Source: Dysgonomonadaceae bacterium zrk40
GTDB taxonomy: Bacteria > Bacteroidota > Bacteroidia > Bacteroidales > Dysgonomonadaceae
Length of the DNA: 64,000 nucleotides
Direction: 5' to 3'
NCBI GenBank assembly: GCA_016916535.1
Contig: CP070276.1
Location: forward strand, 186,001-250,000
Shown: positions 14,680 through 26,150 of the stretch, one piece after another
How positions within the stretch are numbered: position 1 is the first letter of the stretch
How the letters are laid out: every line of letters begins with the position of its first letter
Made by a program: the position numbers and the translations under genes
Notes under the pieces: model-generated
Seen by the model: the letters and a program-made list of their open reading frames with translations, nothing else
Databases searched by the model: none
Told to the model about the DNA's origin: nothing

Positions 14680-14705
14680 AAGCCCGTTTCGACGGGCTTT
14701 TTTTT
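14680..14705 (-). terminator. Terminator after the SNF2 helicase gene, possibly bidirectional
   Basis: A perfect 8-base stem AAGCCCGT / ACGGGCTT closing a TTCG tetraloop (14680-14699). The helicase stop codon (14704-14706) lies in the flanking A/T run. On the minus strand the hairpin is followed by a moderate T-rich stretch; on the plus strand it is followed by an unbroken T run. It should end the helicase transcript and would stop any plus-strand transcript even better. Confidence 0.75.
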
Positions 14706-17607
14706 ATATCACCCTCCATCTGATCGTGAACACCTCTTTCTGAAGCAGCTTCTGGTTAAGCATCTTTTCAATTTCCGTCAACAGCTTTTCCTTTCTTTCA
14801 TCAATTTCATCCTGAGAAGTAAACAATGATTGCCTCTTCTCGTTGCGTTCCTTCTCCAGTTTCTTTATTTCACGTTGTGCTGCTACTTTTGATTCGAGAC
14901 TGAGCATTTTCTTCGCTTCTGCTCTCCGGAGCTTTATTTCAGCATCAAGATCCTTGATTTCCTTCTCCAGGCTAATCTTCATGTCATCGGCCCACTGATC
15001 GAGCTTGTCCATCTCAATGTCAAAAAAATCTCTGTTTCGCAATGCATTGGTGGTAACAATTTCCTGCCTATATCTGGCGATGTTTTTTGACAGACGTGAT
15101 TCAATTTCAGGATCTAAATATAGCAAATTTTTCTCTTCTGCCTGCAATGAAAAGAGTCTTTGGGCTATTTCGGGCTCAATCTCAGCACCCTCATCCGTAA
15201 TACAGGACAACAATAAATAATCTTCGTTTTCAAACGAGTTGATGCTCAATTGTTCCACCCGCAACCATCCGGAATTGCCTATCAAACCGTTCAATGAGGA
15301 TATGAGCGTAGGGGTGTCGGTATAATTGAATTCGATCATCCGCACCGGTGTGGGAAGCGACTTGCATTCCTGCAAGATGTGTTGAGCCAACTTGTGCCCT
15401 ACCCTGTAGATGTTCGTATCATCCGGGACAATGATATCGCTTTTCTTCTTCCCTTCTTCTGTGCAAAGCATCTTGTAGGAGCCAGAATGAATGGTCACAT
15501 CGTGAAAGGGATTCTCGGGCAGATGAAAGGAGAATTCATTGTCGTTGAAAAATGCATCGTTTTTCAGCACATACTTGGTTAGCTTCCATAACTTCTGTTC
15601 AAAAGTATTCAGGTAGGATTTTGTTTTTTCAAAATTGACCCTCAACTTATCCCGCACCTCTTCATCGAAATTTTCCAACAATGTTGAACGAACACTCTGT
15701 AATTTCTCAGAGATGGTAGGTTTCAACTCTTCCTGAAGATCATCGAAAGCACTTTGAATCTCTTCGGTAGTTCTACATTCCTGGTATATCTGGGCTATTC
15801 TCTTCTCAAAGTCGACACCGTTGCCAATAGCTCCCAGCACCTCATCGCTGGCACCAAAGACACCATCGAACAACCTGAATTTCTGTTCCAACAGTTCATA
15901 TACACGCACATCGGCTTGGTTCCGTATATTGACAAAATTGACCACCACCACATCGAATTTCTGTCCATACCTGTGACAGCGACCTATTCTTTGCTCTATC
16001 CTTTGTGGGTTCCATGGCATATCGTAATTCAGCACCAAAGAACAAAATTGCAGGTTAACCCCTTCAGATGCAGCTTCGGTAGCAATCATTATGGTCGCAT
16101 TGTCTCTGAAATAATCGACTATCGCTGATCGTTTATCTGCTGTGTGTGATCCGGAAATCTTGTCGGTACCTTTATGCTTTTCAAGCCACTGGTTATAGAT
16201 TCGTGTTGAATGAGGATCATTATTTGTGCCATTGAACAGAACAACCTGATCTTTGTATTTTTTCTCTGTCAGGAGATTATACAAATATTCCTGGGTTCTT
16301 TTCGATTCGGTAAAGATCAATGCTTTTTGGTTTGCCCCCAACAGTTGCAACTGTTCAAAAGCCTTGTCCAGCGCAATGAAAAGGTGATCTGCTTTCGAGT
16401 TTTTCTTAATTGCCCTGGCTAGTTCGCGGAATTCTTTCAGAACTTCTATCTCTTCTTTTATTCCCTGGATATCAGCCTCTGAATATTGCTGTTCTTCTTC
16501 CACGATGTTCTCTTCTTCATTATCGACCCACTCATCTCTAGTTTCATTAAACGCCTCATATTCATCGGAGAATAAATCGGCAATATCAGTTTCATGTTTC
16601 TCAACGATGGATTCGAGCCTTCTGACCAATGTTTCGAAAGTACCAAAAATGGCATAGGTTGATGAGGCCAGCAGTTTGCGCAGGATAAGCGTCATCAACT
16701 GCCTCTGACTCCTGGGCAAAGCATACAGTTTTGGTTTCTGTAGGTATTCAGAAACGGCATCATACAATTCCTGTTCTTGATTCCGGGGAATATACTCTTC
16801 GCAGATTGCTCTCCGCTCAGTGTAACTGATGTACTCAAGCACCTGCCGGCGGAGTGTTCTCTTACAAACCGGGTGCAGTCTTTTTTTTAGCTCATAATAA
16901 TCCTCTTCTTCAAGCTGCCGGCTATACTGGCTTTTGAAGCTTTTCAGATCACCAAACACGAAGTCATCGATAATGCTGACCAAACCATACAATTCAAGTA
17001 CTGAATTCTGAAGAGGAGTAGCAGTAAGCAGAACCTTTTTTCTGGGCAGAAGCGATTGTCTGATTGCATTGCCGATTACGTTAGAAGCCTTGTAGACATT
17101 TCTCAACCGGTGCGCTTCATCAATGATCACCAGATTCCAGTTGGTCGATTCAACATAACTCGCTTTTGACTTGGCAAACTGGAATGAACAAATAACAATC
17201 TTGTCCTTCTGATGAAATGGATTGAAGTTTTTCTCCTTGATCTCGTTGTTAAAAGATTTCGTTTCGAGAATAACAGAGGGGAGAAAGAACTTGTCGGCCA
17301 ATTCCTGGCTCCATTGTTTCCTGAGGTTGGAAGGACAAATAATCAACAGGCATCTTTTCCGTTCGGCCCATTGTTGGGAGAAAATGATTCCGGCCTCGAT
17401 GGTTTTACCGAGTCCCACTTCATCGGCCAGGATCGCTCCATTCGAAAGCGGTGACCTGAACGCAAACAAGGCTGCCTCAACCTGATGTGGATTAAGGTCG
17501 ACCTGCGCATCCTGAAGCGAAGCAGTGAATTTTCCCACGTCGTTGGAAGGAAGCTGCCTGGTAAGTTCGTGCGAGAAATATTTGGCGTGATATGAAGTCA
17601 GATTCAT
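14704..17607 (-). CDS. SNF2-type DEAD/DEAH helicase, defence-associated
   Basis: A 967-residue SF2 ATPase of the SNF2/RapA-like group. Motifs: DEVGLGKT at 62-69, IIDEAHRLRN with DEAH at 163-166, LTATPLQN near 195-201, and IGRCHRYGQ as motif VI in the second RecA domain. The last 130 residues are a charged coiled coil (EKEIKDLDAEIKLRRAEAKK and following). Such helicases often stand next to type III mod/res genes or within DISARM-like loci, where they are thought to help recognise or process foreign DNA. None of the other DISARM genes is present. A hairpin follows the stop, so it may be transcribed apart from the HEPN-mod-res genes. The gene looks complete. Confidence 0.85.
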   Translation of the reverse strand: MNLTSYHAKYFSHELTRQLPSNDVGKFTASLQDAQVDLNPHQVEAALFAFRSPLSNGAILADEVGLGKTIEAGIIFSQQWAERKRCLLIICPSNLRKQWSQELADKFFLPSVILETKSFNNEIKEKNFNPFHQKDKIVICSFQFAKSKASYVESTNWNLVIIDEAHRLRNVYKASNVIGNAIRQSLLPRKKVLLTATPLQNSVLELYGLVSIIDDFVFGDLKSFKSQYSRQLEEEDYYELKKRLHPVCKRTLRRQVLEYISYTERRAICEEYIPRNQEQELYDAVSEYLQKPKLYALPRSQRQLMTLILRKLLASSTYAIFGTFETLVRRLESIVEKHETDIADLFSDEYEAFNETRDEWVDNEEENIVEEEQQYSEADIQGIKEEIEVLKEFRELARAIKKNSKADHLFIALDKAFEQLQLLGANQKALIFTESKRTQEYLYNLLTEKKYKDQVVLFNGTNNDPHSTRIYNQWLEKHKGTDKISGSHTADKRSAIVDYFRDNATIMIATEAASEGVNLQFCSLVLNYDMPWNPQRIEQRIGRCHRYGQKFDVVVVNFVNIRNQADVRVYELLEQKFRLFDGVFGASDEVLGAIGNGVDFEKRIAQIYQECRTTEEIQSAFDDLQEELKPTISEKLQSVRSTLLENFDEEVRDKLRVNFEKTKSYLNTFEQKLWKLTKYVLKNDAFFNDNEFSFHLPENPFHDVTIHSGSYKMLCTEEGKKKSDIIVPDDTNIYRVGHKLAQHILQECKSLPTPVRMIEFNYTDTPTLISSLNGLIGNSGWLRVEQLSINSFENEDYLLLSCITDEGAEIEPEIAQRLFSLQAEEKNLLYLDPEIESRLSKNIARYRQEIVTTNALRNRDFFDIEMDKLDQWADDMKISLEKEIKDLDAEIKLRRAEAKKMLSLESKVAAQREIKKLEKERNEKRQSLFTSQDEIDERKEKLLTEIEKMLNQKLLQKEVFTIRWRVI

Positions 17608-17644
17608 ATTCCCATGAAAATTGCATCGATCGATATACTATTTA

Positions 17645-17652
17645 CAAATATA
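17645..17652 (-). promoter_or_regulatory. -7 element before the SNF2 helicase gene
   Basis: The minus strand reads TATATTTG, a match to TAnnTTTG, 37 bases upstream of the ATG at 17607. The surrounding sequence is very AT-rich, so chance matches are likely. Confidence 0.35.
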
Positions 17653-17741
17653 CAATTTTTTTGTTAAAAACTTTTTGCGGGACATCTTTAATCTAGTTTG
17701 AAACCGAATTGTAATATTTATGAAGCTGAAACTCCCAATAC

Positions 17742-18092
17742 TTAAGCTGAAACGATCTTATACTCGGGTATAGAGTCTGAGCTATTTTCATTCAATTCGA
17801 GGGAGTACCCCTTGAAGTTATTTCCTGCATTCGAAACAATTATTCTTCTAAAATCGTGAGAAGTAAGCTTGACCAAGATGTTCTGATCTTTTACAGTGTA
17901 TATATGAAACTTATGTTTTTCATCTTCTTCTGGATCAACATATCCATCTATCAACATACGTTTGTTTTGATCGATTTTTATGAGATGGGATGAGTTATTA
18001 AAATACGCTAACAATATATTCCAGCTTTCTTGGATATCTTTTCCCAACTTTAATCGAAGTAATTCTGATTTTATTTTTTCCAGGTTATTCAT
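17742..18092 (-). CDS. Small protein of unknown function
   Basis: A 116-residue protein starting MNNLEKIKSELLRLKLGK. I do not recognise a family. The first 40 residues look helical; the rest alternates short strands (RMLIDGYVDPEEDEKHKFHI, NILVKLTSHDFRRIIVSN). No signal peptide or membrane segment. An in-frame ATG 39 bases upstream (18131) exists, but a TAAATTTG -7 element (18116-18123) falls between, favouring the start at 18092. It lies 134 bases upstream of the SNF2 helicase gene on the same strand, and the IS4-type element begins just upstream of it, so it may have been cut off from an older operon. It could be a small partner of the helicase (inference). Confidence 0.55.
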   Translation of the reverse strand: MNNLEKIKSELLRLKLGKDIQESWNILLAYFNNSSHLIKIDQNKRMLIDGYVDPEEDEKHKFHIYTVKDQNILVKLTSHDFRRIIVSNAGNNFKGYSLELNENSSDSIPEYKIVSA

Positions 18093-18115
18093 ATTTGCGA
18101 GATTTAAAGTAATGA

Positions 18116-18123
18116 CAAATTTA
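18116..18123 (-). promoter_or_regulatory. -7 element before the 116-residue gene
   Basis: The minus strand reads TAAATTTG (TAnnTTTG consensus), 23 bases before the ATG at 18092. It lies inside the longer reading frame and supports the shorter start. Confidence 0.35.
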
Positions 18124-18131
18124 TAAAACAA

Positions 18132-19515
18132 TACTTCGGTAAATATTCAATTAACTAATTAAAATTCAATGATTTACGCAACATAGTTTAACATAAAAAA
18201 GATGGTTAAGTAGCTGATAATCAGTATCTTTATAGCTGATGAAAGCCTAATAAAGATGGATAAAACCAGCATACTTAACCAATATAGAGGTATCTGTAGT
18301 GATGTTCTTGGTGAACTAACTACGAAGTTAAACAAAAGTTTCAAATCATTCCTTATGGAGACGCTTATTTTGTATCTGGTCATTCCCGGGAGGATTAATT
18401 TCCTACAATTAGGGAGATATGGCAAGTCGTGTGAACAGCGATTTCGCCAGAACTTCTCGAAGGATTTTGATTGGCTGGAGTTTAACTTGTCTTTGTCTGA
18501 TAGGGTATTAACCGGAGATCGCAAGGCTATTGCCATTGATCCCAGTTATATAACCAAATCAGGAAAGAATACCCCTTGGATTGGTTACTTCTGGTCGGGT
18601 GCAGCCGGTCAGGCGAAAAGGGGATTGGAAATCCTGGGAGTGGGCCTTATAGACGTCGACAATAAGGATTGCATCAGTCTACAGGCCGTTCAGACTCCGG
18701 ACCGTCAAACCCTGGAGAGTCGTGATGCCAACCTGATCGACTGGTACCTGCTGGTCATTAAATCGATGCGGGATAAACTCCATCGGACAAGCCGTTACGT
18801 GGTTGCCGATGCCTACTTCGCAAAGAACAACTTCGTTATGGGTCTGCAAGAGATGAAGTTTGATCTGGTCAGCCGTTTCAGGGATGATGCCGCACTTTAT
18901 TATCCAACACTGCAGAAACCAACGGGCAAGAAAGGCAGGCCTAAACTCTACGACGGAAAGATTGATATGGCCAACCTGGATACAACCAGAGTGCAAAAGA
19001 TCAATATTGATAACGGTGATCTCTACACCTTGATAGCCTATTCAAAATCTCTTAAACAGATGGTCAGGCTTGTCGTCTGGTATTCCAAAGATGGGAAAAA
19101 ACCAAAACTGTTCTTCTCTACCAATTCTAAGATGAGCGGGAAGGATGTCATAGAGTATTACCGCACCCGTTTTCAGATCGAGTTTTGCTTCAGGGATGCA
19201 AAAGGCTTCACAGGACTGATGCAATCGCAGGCAAGGGATGTAGCAAAGCTATCGTTCAACTTTAATGCATCTCTTACCTCGGTTAACCTGGCAAAGGTGT
19301 TGGCAAAGGAGAAAGGCATCCCCTTTTCGATGGCATCATGTAAAACAATGATACACAACGCTTATCTGCTTGAACGATTTATTTGCGTGTCTGGCATTAA
19401 ACCGAACAGAAGATTAAATGATAAACTTGTTAAAGAACTCGTGGAGTTTGCAGCCATTGCTGCATGACTCATATAGTAAATTTTTAACGGACTATTGATA
19501 TATAGTAAGGCACAA
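18132..19515 (+). mobile_element. IS4-superfamily insertion sequence, ends not resolved
   Basis: A single intact transposase gene (18256-19467) in opposite orientation to all neighbours marks an insertion between the 116-residue gene and the HEPN gene. The coordinates given are the outer limits set by those genes. I could not find a convincing pair of terminal inverted repeats or a target duplication in the flanks, so exact ends remain open. Confidence 0.6.
18256..19467 (+). CDS. IS4-type DDE transposase
   Basis: A 403-residue transposase of the Transposase_11 (IS4) superfamily. The catalytic triad is readable: D95 in AIAIDPSYIT, D185 in YVVADAYFAK, and E309 in YYRTRFQIEFCFRDAK, the Y-(2)-R-(3)-E-(6)-K signature of IS4 with K315. 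It acts by cut-and-paste of its own element. The frame is intact, so the element may still be active. Its codon use is closer to the GC-richer core genes than to the AT-rich genes on either side, which fits a recent arrival. Confidence 0.88.
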   Translation: MDKTSILNQYRGICSDVLGELTTKLNKSFKSFLMETLILYLVIPGRINFLQLGRYGKSCEQRFRQNFSKDFDWLEFNLSLSDRVLTGDRKAIAIDPSYITKSGKNTPWIGYFWSGAAGQAKRGLEILGVGLIDVDNKDCISLQAVQTPDRQTLESRDANLIDWYLLVIKSMRDKLHRTSRYVVADAYFAKNNFVMGLQEMKFDLVSRFRDDAALYYPTLQKPTGKKGRPKLYDGKIDMANLDTTRVQKINIDNGDLYTLIAYSKSLKQMVRLVVWYSKDGKKPKLFFSTNSKMSGKDVIEYYRTRFQIEFCFRDAKGFTGLMQSQARDVAKLSFNFNASLTSVNLAKVLAKEKGIPFSMASCKTMIHNAYLLERFICVSGIKPNRRLNDKLVKELVEFAAIAA

Positions 19516-20109
19516 TTATTTTATTTTAATATATATCTCTTTTCCTAATTCCGAAATGAAATTTATTGTATCACTTAACATTTGTCCATCAATCGGCCAT
19601 TTACGTCCGGGGTATGATGGATCCATATCTGCTTCATGCGCAATTTTATTTCGTCGGTCAACAACAAGCTTCAATTTAATTTTCAGGTCACCTGCACTTA
19701 TGTGAAAACTTGGGGCCACTTCCTCCCAAACTTTCTTATCGCTTATGAGCCTCAATGCATCAGCAATTTTAATCGGGTCATGAAATGTTAACCAAGAATG
19801 CTTTTGTCTTATATGTGAGGCAATTGTATTGGAAGTGGGTCGTCCTGATTGTGCTATAGAAATTGGAATAGGGTATTCATTAAATGAATTCGTTGCATCT
19901 CTGCGAGCATTAAATATTTCGAGCATCTCTTCTAAAACAAATGAATGAATAAAATGATCAAGGGTACTTACAACGAGTACTATTTGCGCTCTATACAAAT
20001 CTGAAACATCTATGAGATTTGTAGTAAGTTTATCTACTTGTTTAATGGTTGCATTCAAATCTCTTATTCTTGAAATACCATTATTAAATTGAATTATTGA
20101 GTCATTCAT
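19516..20109 (-). CDS. RiboL-PSP-type HEPN protein
   Basis: A 197-residue HEPN protein. The motif DRRNKIAHEADMDP has R153, N154 and H158 (Rx4H), the ribonuclease active site of HEPN folds. An upstream helix LVVSTLDHFIHSFVLEEML and the final DxDP phrase match RiboL-PSP-HEPN domains, which Anantharaman and colleagues linked to RNA-cleaving defence and toxin functions. The start ATG shares one base with the stop of the ParA-type gene before it (TAATG), so the two are translated together. The gene ends at the edge of the IS4-type element, whose right end may have landed within a few bases of the stop. An RNase role is inferred, not shown. Confidence 0.75.
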   Translation of the reverse strand: MNDSIIQFNNGISRIRDLNATIKQVDKLTTNLIDVSDLYRAQIVLVVSTLDHFIHSFVLEEMLEIFNARRDATNSFNEYPIPISIAQSGRPTSNTIASHIRQKHSWLTFHDPIKIADALRLISDKKVWEEVAPSFHISAGDLKIKLKLVVDRRNKIAHEADMDPSYPGRKWPIDGQMLSDTINFISELGKEIYIKIK

Positions 20110-21158
20110 TATGATGTCAAACTTTCAATTCTACTGGCTAAATTTTCAAATATTTGGTCAAATTCATCTCTTTTCGATTGATCCTGAAGTAGAACTTTCC
20201 CCACATGGCCAAATTGCTCATCACTCAACGCAAACACCGGAGTTTTATGATTTTGTGATGTTGCTATTAAGGTATTAAAGTCGGGAATTTGGACTAGGCA
20301 ATAATTACGTGTGAAATCAGCACCTATTTCTAAATATTCAGTAGCGGAAAGAGCCATTCCTATTTCTTGAAGTTTCGGCACAAGACCTTCTGAAACTGCA
20401 ACATTTATTCTGTCTATCCAACCTTGAAATCCTTCAGTTGCTTCCCCTTTTCTGGGTCGATATTTTTGAACTACTGTTCCAAGAAATTTGGGAAACCCTT
20501 TAGGAAAGGGATACGCAGCTTCTTCTAGTTCTTCTAAACTTTGAGCACGCGCTGACCATTGAACCCAGCGAGGGAACACCGACGTTAGTGAGTCAATGGC
20601 CATCTTGGAAAAGTAATCAGGTGCAGTCGGAACTAAAAAATAATCACATGTCATCAATATATTTTGATTTAAAGCTCCAAGGCTTGGATTCATATCAATT
20701 AAAACATAATCAAAATTATGGATTTCGATTTCTTTATTAACGAAATACGAAAATGCACCTGGTACATTTTTAAGTGCTTGTATTGAACTTGACAGTTCTT
20801 GCGCAATACCTAATGTTATTTCATATTCTGAAAAATTTATGTGACCAGGAATCAAATAGAGATTTTCGCGATTACGCACCTCAATTGGTTCAATTGCTTC
20901 AATCAAACGTGGCATAGATTCATACGCTGGCTTTAGTGCAGATTTAATATTACGATCAGGATTATCCAGATAAAATTGTTCAAAGTCATCGTCACCTGAA
21001 TATCCTAATATAAGACCAGTCAAATTGCATTGCGGATCCGCATCTATCAATAGAACCTTATGTCCTTTTTCAGCTAATTTCCACCCTACATTAAAAGTTG
21101 TGGTTGTCTTACTTACTCCACCTTTGTGATTAAATAATGCAATTTTTTTTGTCATCAT
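20109..21158 (-). CDS. ParA-family ATPase
   Basis: A 349-residue P-loop ATPase of the ParA/MinD group. The deviant Walker A is HKGGVSKTT at residues 11-19 (the usual glycine before KT is Ser16), followed by VLLIDADPQCNLT and IDMNPSLGALNQN. The C-terminal 150 residues carry a family-specific extension (PFPKGFPKFLGTVVQKYRP). There is no ParB gene, no partition site and no plasmid replication gene nearby, so chromosome or plasmid partition is unlikely. Instead it is coupled to a HEPN gene by a one-base overlap. The pair may be an ATPase sensor with an RNase effector (inference). 169 bases separate it from the GHKL ATPase gene upstream. Confidence 0.82.
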   Translation of the reverse strand: MMTKKIALFNHKGGVSKTTTTFNVGWKLAEKGHKVLLIDADPQCNLTGLILGYSGDDDFEQFYLDNPDRNIKSALKPAYESMPRLIEAIEPIEVRNRENLYLIPGHINFSEYEITLGIAQELSSSIQALKNVPGAFSYFVNKEIEIHNFDYVLIDMNPSLGALNQNILMTCDYFLVPTAPDYFSKMAIDSLTSVFPRWVQWSARAQSLEELEEAAYPFPKGFPKFLGTVVQKYRPRKGEATEGFQGWIDRINVAVSEGLVPKLQEIGMALSATEYLEIGADFTRNYCLVQIPDFNTLIATSQNHKTPVFALSDEQFGHVGKVLLQDQSKRDEFDQIFENLASRIESLTS

Positions 21159-21327
21159 ATTTTTATGTGATATTTTTGATATAATTGTGCTTTACAGATG
21201 AATATAAGAATAGTAGCCGTCAGCATGGCAATTTCTTTTCAAGTTACATTAAAGCAGAAACAGGCTATATCCGATGAATTTACAACTGTTTGTCTATTGT
21301 TTTTTATATTGTTAGCTCTCGTTATTC

Positions 21328-23706
21328 CTATTCATCAAATGCCATTTTTGTGATATGATGATTTTCATACAATAGAAAAATCGAATAAGGTTTAATCATA
21401 GAAGACACTAATTCATCCACTTCTAATGGTTTTAATTTATCATCCTCTTTTCTCATTTTCTGAAGGATGCTATATAGAAAAAGAGAATGTAAATATATTG
21501 ACAAGAAATATTTGTCAGTGATATATTTTAACTCTTTTTCTGTAGTAATCCTGTTCTTTGAAACAAATTGTTTTAATACAAAAGCATCCATATTAACTAC
21601 AATACCATCTACCAACAGTTCTTTTGAATCATCATCTATTGAACAGATTACTTTGACAATATCATGACCGTCCCAATTAAATTCATACCATGAAATTCCA
21701 TCTTCGCTTTTAGGATTCTCATATGCCTTTTTTGGAGTAGGTAAATTTGGATACGTCTCTGTTTTTTTGTCTTCTATTTTATGAGGTGGACTTATTTTCT
21801 CGTCAACTTTAACAGTAAAGACGCATGTCAAATCATTACCCGGATTACTTAGTGTCGCTTTAATTTCAACTTCATCTCCAATTTGAGCCTGTTCAGTGGG
21901 CTTGACAATAAGTTTGATGGAACCATTTGTTGGACCCTCTCTTTCTACAGTTATTATGTCTACAACTTCGTTTGGACTAGGATTAGATGTTTTAACTACG
22001 TTGTCATTAATATTTCTTTTTTGTAATATTTCTACCTCAAATTGTCCTTTTTCATATGGTCTGAATAAATAATCATCCTCAACATCTGTTTCAAAAAATA
22101 CTTTTCCCTGACTATTAATAGGTATAGTTTTGTATGTTTTGCCATGATTACTATGTTTTAAGTTAAATATTGATGGAAATCTATTAAGTTTTTTTTGTTC
22201 TTCTTTTTTTATTGGTGTTGTTTTTTTTCCTTTAGTTTTCAGAAAATTTAAAGCACCATTTTTCCTAAGTAGATTTATAACATCATCATCAACAGGAAGC
22301 TTTGACAATAAATTAGTGATTAATTCATTATCAGAATCAGAATTCTGGAATATGGCGTTTTTCCAGTCATTGTTTATTTCTTTTAATTGTTCACTTTTTC
22401 GAAGCACTTCAATGATTACATCTCGCAAGTTTTCTGTTTTAGGACCTTGTTTTAAATGAGTTCGATTTGACATAAATAAATCTTGTCGGATGCTTGTCGG
22501 GATTTTTGTGCAATCAACATGAATCAACAGATGTTTTTTTAAAAGAGAAAAACCCAAATCTTGTGAAATAAAAGACTGACCTTCAAATCCATGTACCTGA
22601 CCATTTAGTGTAAAAATAATTGATTTATTTTTGATGAATTCACCATGGTCTACTACCTTGTCAAAAATAATTGCTTCAATATTCACTTCTCCTACAGCTG
22701 AATTTGGGGGGATATTAAATTGTATGATTTTTTGAACTTTATTTCTATCATCAATAGCGATTCTCGTACGATTTCCGAGAAGTGGTTTATCTGGTGTTTT
22801 ACCTGCATAGTCTCTTTTTTCGAAAACAACTAAAGGTAGAGGTAAATTAAACATAAATTGATTCAAATCTCTCCACAAATCAAGTGTAATATCTGAACGA
22901 GACCCTCTTGGTAACTGGTATGAGTAAAGTTTTACAATACTACCACTGGTGAACAATCTATTTTTTAAACCAATATCAATTGAATCTATTAGAAATGAAG
23001 GTATCTTAGAATTTGGACAGAAATATTCATACCAAGTTGCTTTCCCATATTCATACTCTTCTTCCTTAGACAAAGGATGCCTTCTTACAAGGGTAAAACC
23101 TAATTCTCCATTTGATTCAAAATCAGGATGCCTTTTTGAAGCAATTAACTGGTATTTGTTTTCTCCGCAAAAAACGACTGCTCCAGTAGACCCCATATTA
23201 TATTTGCCTTGGACAAAATGGATATTTGTTTTATTGTTACGATGCAGAGAAAGAAATGTGTTATAAAAATTTTCAGGATTTTGACCCTCTCCATTGTCGT
23301 AGATAACTAAAGACGGTTGTTTTTTGTCACCAAATGCTAATACTTGGATATTTTCCGCTAATTCTCTTCTTGATTTTGGGTCAAGTTCTCCTATTTCCCC
23401 ATCCTTTACATTATAAAACAATTCAACTGCCTTCTTCATTGAATTTGGAGCTTCTTTTGATTTTGGATCTAATCCTTTTAATTTACATTCTTTAATAAGA
23501 ATTGCATCTATTGAATTCGTTATTTTTTCAATTAAAGCAGGGACAGGATGATTTTGTTGACTTTCAAAAGTCCCGAAGTTCCCCTTATTATCTCCATATG
23601 GTCTCCAGTTTTCTGACATTTCAAAAATGGCATTTTCAGAAATAATCTTAGTTATTTCATTTTCATCGTGAGTCTTGTACAAATCCCAAAATAATTTTTC
23701 CATCAT
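21328..23706 (-). CDS. GHKL (MORC/Hsp90-like) ATPase, defence-associated
   Basis: A 792-residue protein with an N-terminal GHKL ATPase: N-box EKITNSIDA (E60, N64, D67), G1 box DNGEG at 137-141, and G2 box GKYNMGSTG at 167-175. The residues from about 500 include a KKTTPIKKEEQKKLN linker, a strand-rich Ig-like stretch near 590-645 (LIVKPTEQAQIGDEVEIKAT) and a helical C-terminus. Iyer and Aravind described MORC-type ATPases inside prokaryotic restriction and defence loci; this protein fits that broad class. There is no histidine-kinase or MutL partner domain. It is the first gene of the AT-rich minus-strand row. Substrate and partner are unknown. Confidence 0.75.
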   Translation of the reverse strand: MMEKLFWDLYKTHDENEITKIISENAIFEMSENWRPYGDNKGNFGTFESQQNHPVPALIEKITNSIDAILIKECKLKGLDPKSKEAPNSMKKAVELFYNVKDGEIGELDPKSRRELAENIQVLAFGDKKQPSLVIYDNGEGQNPENFYNTFLSLHRNNKTNIHFVQGKYNMGSTGAVVFCGENKYQLIASKRHPDFESNGELGFTLVRRHPLSKEEEYEYGKATWYEYFCPNSKIPSFLIDSIDIGLKNRLFTSGSIVKLYSYQLPRGSRSDITLDLWRDLNQFMFNLPLPLVVFEKRDYAGKTPDKPLLGNRTRIAIDDRNKVQKIIQFNIPPNSAVGEVNIEAIIFDKVVDHGEFIKNKSIIFTLNGQVHGFEGQSFISQDLGFSLLKKHLLIHVDCTKIPTSIRQDLFMSNRTHLKQGPKTENLRDVIIEVLRKSEQLKEINNDWKNAIFQNSDSDNELITNLLSKLPVDDDVINLLRKNGALNFLKTKGKKTTPIKKEEQKKLNRFPSIFNLKHSNHGKTYKTIPINSQGKVFFETDVEDDYLFRPYEKGQFEVEILQKRNINDNVVKTSNPSPNEVVDIITVEREGPTNGSIKLIVKPTEQAQIGDEVEIKATLSNPGNDLTCVFTVKVDEKISPPHKIEDKKTETYPNLPTPKKAYENPKSEDGISWYEFNWDGHDIVKVICSIDDDSKELLVDGIVVNMDAFVLKQFVSKNRITTEKELKYITDKYFLSIYLHSLFLYSILQKMRKEDDKLKPLEVDELVSSMIKPYSIFLLYENHHITKMAFDE

Positions 23707-24292
23707 ATCAGTTTCTTTATTTCAAATGAAAACTAACGGACGAACGGAAGATTTGCGAGAGATATTCACTATCACTGGTAATCTCGTAAATCCTGTGTTC
23801 AACGATGTCTCCGTGATGCGAATAATTGAATGCAGGATGTAATCCATCATTCGTTCTCCCTACTAACAGAAAGCGATATAGGGAGAAAGTGTTATTAACG
23901 CAATTAAAATCCAACTTTCGTAATTACTAGATTTACAAAATTCTATTATCCCAAAGTAAATGGAGGTGGTTACGATAGATATTAAAATGCGATTACAGTT
24001 ATCTAATCATGCGTTACTCATTAGTATATGTAGTCAAAAACCCAAAGTTAATAAAAAATGTAAATTGAAAAAACAAAATTGTTAATTATTTTTTTCAGTT
24101 TCCCTCTGCACTTTGATCGCTACCTACCAACGATAATCGATTGTGAAATAAGCACCTCGTGTCAGCCCTACTATTTTGTAATTGCTCTTGCTTATATTCT
24201 TTTAAAACCTTATCCTAGGCTTGTGTTATTAAATCTGATACCTCTTTATTCCCCAAAGACCTGAGTCAAGCCGCAAAGATTGGACTAATATT

Positions 24293-24345
24293 TGACACCT
24301 TGTGTCATTCATCTCATTTGTTTAAATGAAAATAGGAACCTATTT
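24293..24345. repeat. Cluster of three palindromes
   Basis: Three inverted repeats in 53 bases: TGACAC-ctt-GTGTCA (24293-24307), TCATTT-gttt-AAATGA (24314-24329) and, directly next to it, AAATAGG-aa-CCTATTT (24330-24345). Each has perfect arms of 6 or 7 bases. None is followed by a T-run, so they are not ordinary terminators. Confidence 0.65.
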
Positions 24346-24358
24346 GGCTAGACATGGG

Positions 24359-24449
24359 CAAGGACTCGGCCTCTGCCTCTCCAATTTTTATGGGAGGGGC
24401 ATGGGAGGGGCTTTGGAGGGGCATTGGAGGGGCACCGGCCCAGTCCTTG
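24359..24449. repeat. Inverted repeat enclosing a G-rich tandem array
   Basis: Arms CAAGGACTCGGCC (24359-24371) and GGCCCAGTCCTTG (24437-24449) pair at 12 of 13 positions. They enclose 65 bases containing a CT-rich segment and the four 11-base G-rich units, which can also pair partly with each other (GCCTCTCC against GGAGGGGC). On either strand the RNA or single-stranded DNA could form a long stem. Confidence 0.6.
24390..24433 (+). repeat. Four tandem copies of a G-rich 11-mer
   Basis: Units are ATGGGAGGGGC, ATGGGAGGGGC, TTTGGAGGGGC and ATTGGAGGGGC, exactly head to tail. The unit length is not a multiple of three and the area has no gene, so it is not a protein repeat. Runs of three and four G in each unit could form a G-quadruplex. 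Confidence 0.85.
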
Positions 24450-24551
24450 TCAAATCCTTTCACAAAAGCTGCACAAAGAGTACCATATTGAACTTCTGCC
24501 GGTATGATCTGAGTGGGTTCATGCAGTTGCGTGGGGCCGCAGGAGGGCAGC

Positions 24552-26150
24552 CTAAAACCCCTCCAGCTCCATGAAGACGGTGGGGAGCAGCAGGAGAAAA
24601 GCGAGGAAAAAGAGCAGCAGTAGGATCTTCCAGAACCACTTAACCCACACGTCGAAGGGTACCCTGGCAATGCCGAGGGCGCCGATCAGCACGGGGGAGG
24701 TGGGGGTGATCATGTTGGTGATGCCGTCGCCAAACTGGTAGGCCATCACGGTGGCCTGGCGCGAGAGGCCGATCACATCGGAGAAGGGTGCCAGAATGGG
24801 CATGGTGAGGGCCGCCTTGGCCGACCCGGAGGGGATGAAGATGTTGATCACCGACTGCATCACGTACATCCCGCCGATGGTGAGTACCTTGCCGGCATCC
24901 TGCATCAACAGCGCCAATGAGTAGAGGATGGTGTCGATGATCCTGCCCTCGGTGAGGATCTGGATGATGCCCCCGGCCAGCGCGATGACAAGTGCCGCGG
25001 TCAGCATATCTTTCACCCCGGCGATGAACTCCCTGGTGATGGCGCCGGCGGTCATGTTGTTGGCGATGCCGGCCAGCAACCCCATGCCGAGGAAGAGTGC
25101 CGAGATCTCCTCGAGGTACCAGCCATAGCCCATCACACCGGTCACCAGGAAGAGGATGGTGAAGAGCAGCAGGTTGAGGATGAAGAGTTGTGCGGACTTC
25201 CTGATGGCGAGGAACGAGGTGACCGCGAACAGGAGGGTGATGGCCGGGATGAGCGGGAGGGTGAGTTCACTTGCCCCCGCCGAGAGGGTGGTGAGGGGAT
25301 AGCGGAAGGAGAGGAACCCCAGGAGCAGCGTCAGCAGCAGGTAGAGCAGCCGGGCACTTCTCCCGGCGGGGAAGCTCAGCTGCTGCGATTCGCTCTCTGC
25401 CTCCCGCTTGCGCCAGTAGGCATCGGCACGATACATGGGGGATCGCTCCGGGTTCTTCTTTACCCTGGCAGCATAGAGCAGGGTGATGACAATCGCGACC
25501 CCTGTCAGGATGACCCAGCTGAAGAGCCTATAGCCGATGCCGGAGAAGAGGGGCAGGCCGGAGAGCCCCTGTGCGATGCCGATGGTGAAGGGGTTGAGCG
25601 TGGCACCGGTGAAGCCGATGTGGGCGGCCACATAGACCATCATCAGGCCGGTGAGCGAGTCGTACCCCATGGAGATGGCCAGCGGCACGATGATGATCAC
25701 GAAGGCGAGCGTCTCCTCGCTCATCCCGAAGATGGAGCCGAAGGCGCTGAAGAGGAGCATCACCAGGATGATCACCAGGTTGTGGACCCCCACCCTGCCG
25801 AGCAACGGATGCTTGTCGAGCCGGGCGGTCACCTGCAGGAAGGAGTAGATGCCGCTGTCCACGGCACGGCTGCTGTTGAGGATCTGAAAGGCGCCGCCGA
25901 TGATGAGCACGAAGGCGATGATGGCGGCCTGCCGTTCGAAGCCGGCAAGAAAGGAGGAGAAGATCTGCCAGCTCTGGGGTGACCGCTCCACGCGGTGGTA
26001 GGAGTTGTCGACCACCACCTCCCTGCTGATCCCCTCCACCTCCACGGTCTCGTAGTGGAATGCTCCCGCGGGTACAATCCAGGTGAGCAGGGCGCAGAAG
26101 ATGATCAGCGAAAAGATGATCACCAGGGTATGGGGCGTCTTCTTCAGCAT
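24552..26150 (-). CDS. YfcC-family membrane carrier
   Basis: A 532-residue polytopic inner-membrane protein with about a dozen hydrophobic segments, beginning with a signal-anchor-like stretch and WIVPAGAF. The phrases FSAFGSIFGMSEETLAFVII, AAHIGFTGATLNPFTIGIAQ and QSVINIFIPSGSAKAALTMP are characteristic of the YfcC/DcuC-like carrier superfamily (C4-dicarboxylate or amino-acid carriers). Substrate cannot be fixed from sequence; peptide-fermenting Bacteroidota often use such carriers for amino acids or dicarboxylates. The DUF3127 gene ends 9 bases upstream on the same strand, so they form a pair. Codon use is GC-rich, unlike the island to the left. Confidence 0.85.
   Translation of the reverse strand: MLKKTPHTLVIIFSLIIFCALLTWIVPAGAFHYETVEVEGISREVVVDNSYHRVERSPQSWQIFSSFLAGFERQAAIIAFVLIIGGAFQILNSSRAVDSGIYSFLQVTARLDKHPLLGRVGVHNLVIILVMLLFSAFGSIFGMSEETLAFVIIIVPLAISMGYDSLTGLMMVYVAAHIGFTGATLNPFTIGIAQGLSGLPLFSGIGYRLFSWVILTGVAIVITLLYAARVKKNPERSPMYRADAYWRKREAESESQQLSFPAGRSARLLYLLLTLLLGFLSFRYPLTTLSAGASELTLPLIPAITLLFAVTSFLAIRKSAQLFILNLLLFTILFLVTGVMGYGWYLEEISALFLGMGLLAGIANNMTAGAITREFIAGVKDMLTAALVIALAGGIIQILTEGRIIDTILYSLALLMQDAGKVLTIGGMYVMQSVINIFIPSGSAKAALTMPILAPFSDVIGLSRQATVMAYQFGDGITNMITPTSPVLIGALGIARVPFDVWVKWFWKILLLLFFLAFLLLLPTVFMELEGF

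Follow-up and report, generated by a model that had tools for sequence, protein, structure and literature searches.

A non-coding stretch in the window analysed here (a single stretch of 64,000 nucleotides from Dysgonomonadaceae bacterium zrk40) raises the question of what a set of palindromes and a G-rich tandem array are doing at the edge of a low-GC region. The first-pass annotation, made from the letters alone, had considered a structured RNA, a recombination or attachment site, and a protein-binding array, and could put a name to none of them. Much of its description held. The stretch lies between gene ends at 23706 and 24552, the GC content changes there from ~33% to 50-62%, no T-run follows the hairpin, and none of the Rfam covariance models run against the stretch gave a family above its gathering score. 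The four tandem G-rich 11-mers were found at 24391-24434 and are far above chance (the two-unit 11-mer motif was observed 3 times vs 0.04 expected). The 13-base inverted repeat reported around them is present but imperfect, with CAAGGACTCGGCC and GGCCCAGTCCTTG agreeing at 12 of 13 positions within a larger 27-nt pair at 85%. Fold prediction arranges the whole as a hairpin in the order left arm, anti-repeat, AT-rich loop, four 11-mers and right arm (Table 1).

The palindromes and the array had been read as one cluster. All the parts are present and share the non-coding stretch, but the palindromes are distinct from the array. The three palindromes had been called perfect; each has a spacer of 2-4 nt. 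They exceed chance: their joint score was reached neither in 1000 dinucleotide shuffles of these 62 nt nor in any other 62-nt tile across the window. Palindrome 1 (TTGACAMCTTGTGTCATT) has four near-matches in the genome vs 0 for a reversed control, is present in several relatives too, and may be a regulator site. We rejected it as a component of every element, given that it adjoins only the window copy, one other copy in the same genome (c678) and the related site in G009; elsewhere it stands without arrays.

Table 1 Features discussed in the text, by position in the window or, where stated, in G000:C1
Feature	Position	Strand	Remark
Long ORF, weak HATPase match	21328-23706	minus	left neighbour
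Palindrome 1 TGACACCTTGTGTCA	24293..24307	.	arms 6, spacer 3; separate recurring motif
Palindrome 2 TCATTTGTTTAAATGA	24314..24329	.	arms 6, spacer 4; not conserved
Palindrome 3 AAATAGGAACCTATTT	24330..24345	.	arms 7, spacer 2; not conserved
Recurrences of palindrome TTGACAMCTTGTGTCATT	window 24293-24307; G000:C1:677694, 1997109, 3007828		
Dispersed hairpin element	24349..24457	+ (GGAG-rich strand)	covariance-model match; one of 13 copies in its own genome
Left outer arm CAAGGACTCGGCC	24359..24371	+	12/13 pairing with 24437-24449
Anti-repeat TGCCTCTCCAA	24374..24384	+	covariation with first and last direct units
AT-rich loop TTTTTA	24385..24390	+	AT-rich here in own-genome copies
11-mer unit 1 TGGGAGGGGCA	24391..24401	+	
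11-mer unit 2 TGGGAGGGGCT	24402..24412	+	
11-mer unit 3 TTGGAGGGGCA	24413..24423	+	
11-mer unit 4 TTGGAGGGGCA	24424..24434	+	best partner of the anti-repeat
Right outer arm GGCCCAGTCCTTG	24437..24449	+	pairs with left outer arm CAAGGACTCGGCC
DcuC-family transporter gene	24552-26150	minus	right neighbour
Second-family loci (examples)	G000:C1 139030-139290 (L342), 303361-303612, 252154-252350		

The array proved to be one copy of a dispersed element. The first-pass annotation had proposed a search of the genome and its relatives for the 11-mer, and had named a lack of conservation in relatives as a sign against its reading. A search of the genome with the 168-bp stretch returned a dozen partial copies, and a covariance model built from 12 own-genome copies detected 13 full copies in the 3.47-Mb chromosome, including that of the window. 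The element measures ~109 bp and is longer where extra 11-nt-phased units flank it. With a broader model, the family was matched in 20 of the 39 genus genomes searched, own genome included, with 14 copies in G003 and 13 in G023; conservation in relatives is thus evident. Across an order-wide sample, 4 of 119 genomes were matched (again including its own), and the sequence family therefore appears mostly genus-bound. When named genomes were scanned for the exact pattern, the matches fell mainly in Proteiniphilum and other Bacteroidales, two of these records being the same loci as in the same-genus genomes G009 and G018, which suggests a place for the window in or near Proteiniphilum (Dysgonomonadaceae). 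The phage records searched gave no match, and a phage contig (L068) with a similar 11-mer stretch and no other link was set aside. One contig binned as Methanobrevibacter (L063, JADLKP010000032.1) breaks off within a copy almost identical to the window element; the contig was probably mis-binned and broken at the repeat. Among 52 copies in eight genomes, none overlapped a gene predicted by a home-made gene caller, and the orientations of the neighbouring genes (++, 13; --, 13; -+, 12; +-, 11) showed no bias.

The copies are built of outer arms, one anti-repeat, an AT-rich loop and three to five direct 11-nt units. Aligned copies are 109 (38 copies), 98 (10), 110 (3), 120, 108 or 87 nt long and thus differ mostly by whole-unit steps. 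Their autocorrelation has maxima at lags 11, 22 and 33; the central segment for this analysis was picked partly by lag 11, and the same maxima appear, weaker, in flanks of 45 nt (left) and 55 nt (right) that played no part in choosing the element centre. The unit is spelled differently from genome to genome: TTGGAGRGGCA in the genome under study, ACGGAGGGATA in G003, ATGAAGAGGAT in G023 and its relatives, TCGGAGAGGAG in G009, ATAAGGAGGAT in G002 and ACGAAGTTACA in G058. Unit identity is 0.759 within an array, 0.750 between copies of one genome and 0.521 between genomes. In addition, units at the same position match better between copies than units at different positions in all four genomes compared (permutation P 0.001, <0.001, 0.01 and 0.022). 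These two patterns indicate that whole elements were copied within each genome, and the copies of one genome descend from a common array.

Occupied and unoccupied sites were also compared between species. The aminotransferase/ileS site (c2130) is filled in the genome under study and in its nearest relative, G054, and the element is absent in more distant species. At a second site (L300), G023 and G060 carry the element and G008 does not, and a third (L302) is empty in G004. At an orthologous site (L299), the unit letters have turned over, with the phase and the hairpin kept. Sites have thus been gained and lost between species. Neither exact ends nor target-site duplications could be fixed at filled vs empty sites, because the flanks of these sites are too diverged. 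Short (~109 bp, where MITEs span 50-1000 bp), non-coding, multicopy (13 copies) and intergenic (0 of 52 in genes), the family has these general traits of a MITE, and the outer arms, taken as terminal inverted repeats, are imperfect in the window family. No autonomous parent sharing the ends of the element emerged from a DNA search of the genome. The Y1/RAYT transposase family (PF01797), for which control genomes gave matches, is absent from this genome, and a RAYT/Y1 enzyme was rejected as the mobiliser on that ground.

The element has a hairpin, an 11-nt phase and an intergenic placement, has dispersed by copying, and is gained and lost. We consider it probable that it is a short non-coding dispersed repeat, a non-autonomous element of the MITE/BOX/BrickBuilt kind, whose 11-nt units are putative protein-binding sites. 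Its spread would be that of a MITE-like element, in the broad sense of the term: mobile but non-autonomous, with the enzyme acting in trans. The units, each of one helical turn, may be bound by this enzyme or by a different DNA-binding protein; slippage by whole units would alter the length of the array, and the genome-specific spelling could stem from successive copying bursts, from co-evolution with the binding protein, or from both. The protein-binding array of the first-pass annotation remains plausible as part of this explanation, in which binding is a step that we infer.

Alternatively, a regulator or a nucleoid-type protein could assemble along the chromosome on these units, with a subunit at each helical turn; the arrays would then serve the cell and not be selfish, and the common unit of a genome would follow from recognition of all its copies by a single protein. 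The strict 11-nt phase and the genome-wide dialects fit such an array, as does the DNA-type covariation described below if the anti-repeat is merely an inverted site. Units are, moreover, more alike between copies (0.75) than are the arms (left 0.43-0.71, right 0.54-0.68). It is nevertheless an unlikely explanation: the copies show neither an orientation bias nor a common promoter position, many genomes of the genus had no match at the sensitivity used, close relatives have empty sites, and the same genome harbors a second family that is built alike but has an unrelated unit.

The hairpin itself is real. Across a set of 20 diverse copies, pairing of the anti-repeat is seen in 80.9% of cells with the first unit and in 91.4% with the last, and the observed two-sided changes and covariation score were reached by 0 of 500 shuffles. 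When the partner was slid by one column, pairing fell to about half of all cells. The anti-repeat also fits its own first unit better than the first units of other genomes in 49 of 54 copies. Mismatches of both kinds are equally depleted relative to shuffles (G-T, 48 vs ~72; A-C, 44 vs ~68). RNA pairing tolerates one of these mismatches and not the other, and the pairing therefore looks constrained on DNA, not on RNA. The slid control and the G-T/A-C symmetry were weighted most, because sequence relatedness inflates covariation counts.

Of the structured RNA that had been suggested for this locus, the hairpin thus stands, backed by covariation, but the RNA level is opposed by the equal depletion. 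A small RNA, a 3'-UTR element or a Rho/intrinsic terminator would agree with the stable predicted fold of the stretch (minus strand, -44.7 kcal/mol, z -2.9; plus strand, z -1.7), with a C-rich minus strand whose 11-nt spacing is reminiscent of Rho-loading sites, and with the terminator hairpins that adjoin several copies. We regard such a role as improbable, given that G-T pairs are no more favoured than A-C mismatches, that orientation bias is absent, with 12 of the 52 copies lying between divergent genes, and that both a T-run and an Rfam match are lacking. The lack of orientation bias speaks against a Rho-loading or terminator role of the C-rich strand, which was rejected, and the combination expected of an intrinsic terminator (a GC hairpin plus T-run in fixed orientation 3' of a gene) was not seen. 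The FopS paralogous small RNAs of Bacteroides, which have a single-stranded 5' part and a terminator, differ in architecture and were discarded as candidates.

Purely local, neutral slippage combined with hairpin-templated repair (quasi-palindrome correction), involving neither spread nor a binding protein, would produce length changes by whole units, co-variation of anti-repeat and repeats on DNA, and an orthologous site with turned-over letters in a kept phase such as the one found. However, the units within an array are no more alike than those of dispersed copies in the same genome, units match by position between copies, and the arms are common to the copies. Furthermore, a lag scan of 0.91 Mb of the genome gave 13 strong clusters at lag 11 and none at lags 10, 13, 17, 19 or 20. 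Judging from these sequence comparisons, slippage alone fails to explain the unit pattern, and we hold this account to be very improbable; the neutral variation in 11-mer number that the first-pass annotation had named as a further sign against its reading is not the pattern observed.

The low-GC island next to the element (window 14704-23706) encodes a DISARM DrmD-like helicase (E 6e-202), a ParA-like ATPase, a HEPN protein, the long ORF with a weak HATPase match and a DDE transposase, and is possibly a defence island. Part of the left flank (24273-24309) is common to the relative G009 (the same record as G043). There too it lies downstream of the DcuC-family gene, but the array beside it is another one and runs in the opposite direction; the contig of this relative ends at that point, short of the island edge. 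The earlier proposal of an island-specific attachment or recombination site at this border, consistent with the position of the element at the GC change and with the transposase and DrmD-like helicase of the adjoining island, is largely refuted and in our view scarcely credible, as an element with 12 further copies elsewhere in the chromosome, wide occurrence in the genus and a flank shared with G009 is neither unique to island borders nor set in a flank of its own, and an attachment site is therefore not supported.

The second dispersed family in this genome has an 11-nt unit, ATTAGAACCAT, an anti-repeat, TTCTAAT, and ~29 loci genome-wide, and some of the lag-11 clusters belong to it. Its longer copies carry terminator-like 14-bp inverted ends (AAGAGGCTGTCTCA ... 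TGAGACAGCCTCTT), and these ended copies are more like a classical MITE than is the window family. Intergenic arrays of other unit lengths were also seen in the 0.91 Mb, namely heptamers (TATAAGC-like, 16 clusters; e.g. G000:C1 583286) and octamers (GTTATTAC/CTACAATT-like, 13 clusters; e.g. 24656). Two-sided 11-nt inverted arrays, such as TCACCTCCGTC xN facing ACGGAGRGGCA, occur in other Bacteroidales (L057, L059, L061, L047 and L054, from rumen MAGs and G029), which suggests a wider class. Tentatively, and with more doubt than confidence, we propose that Bacteroidales harbor a general class of dispersed hairpins on an 11-nt ruler, in which families with unrelated units (here GGAGNGGCATT and ATTAGAACCAT) share the build of one anti-repeat and several direct 11-mers. 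Behind the common build would stand a trans-acting system, so far undescribed, that copies DNA, or binds it, in steps of 11 nt or one turn, with the machinery of each genome setting its own unit dialect.

To our knowledge, interspersed repeats of non-model Bacteroidales have hardly been described. The family offers a compact, testable case, as the spelling of the unit is common within a genome and altered between species while the phase and the hairpin are kept. This dialect pattern points to a DNA-binding or mobilising factor, as yet undescribed. We find the shared 11-nt build with unrelated letters the most intriguing part. Such arrays also explain contig breaks in assemblies, and call for caution before they are read as island borders or RNAs.

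Several known systems resemble the element in part. The tandem 11-bp ParR sites of the parC centromere of plasmid R1 have the same unit length; unlike parC, the present element has many chromosomal copies in varied gene contexts and a hairpin. A paper related to the parC/ParR 11-bp sites is available (PMC9426499). The REP/BIME sequences associated with RAYT are likewise dispersed intergenic hairpins that differ between genomes (PMC2817692). Unlike in those systems, the genome studied here has no Y1/RAYT gene (PF01797), which sets the family apart from REP/RAYT, as does its 11-nt array, a build that REPs do not have. BOX elements of Streptococcus pneumoniae consist of stem-forming outer modules around variable tandem inner modules, with a boxB of ~45 bp and without an internal anti-repeat. 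The present family resembles them in being interspersed and in having outer stem modules and variable internal units, in a comparison by architecture; BOX belongs to a different phylum. The BrickBuilt MITE of Porphyromonas gingivalis has ~19 intergenic copies, 23-nt repeats, 12-bp IS5-like terminal inverted repeats and some target-site duplications (PMC4596501). Like BrickBuilt, some of whose sites are polymorphic between strains (PMC4596501), the family occurs in Bacteroidales, is intergenic, holds tandem repeats inside an inverted-repeat element without an internal transposase, and occupies sites that differ between species. In this comparison, made by description and not by sequence, it differs in its unit of 11 nt instead of 23, in the hairpin inside the array and in that no duplication was found. 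Without claiming membership in either, we regard BrickBuilt and BOX as its nearest known counterparts by architecture.
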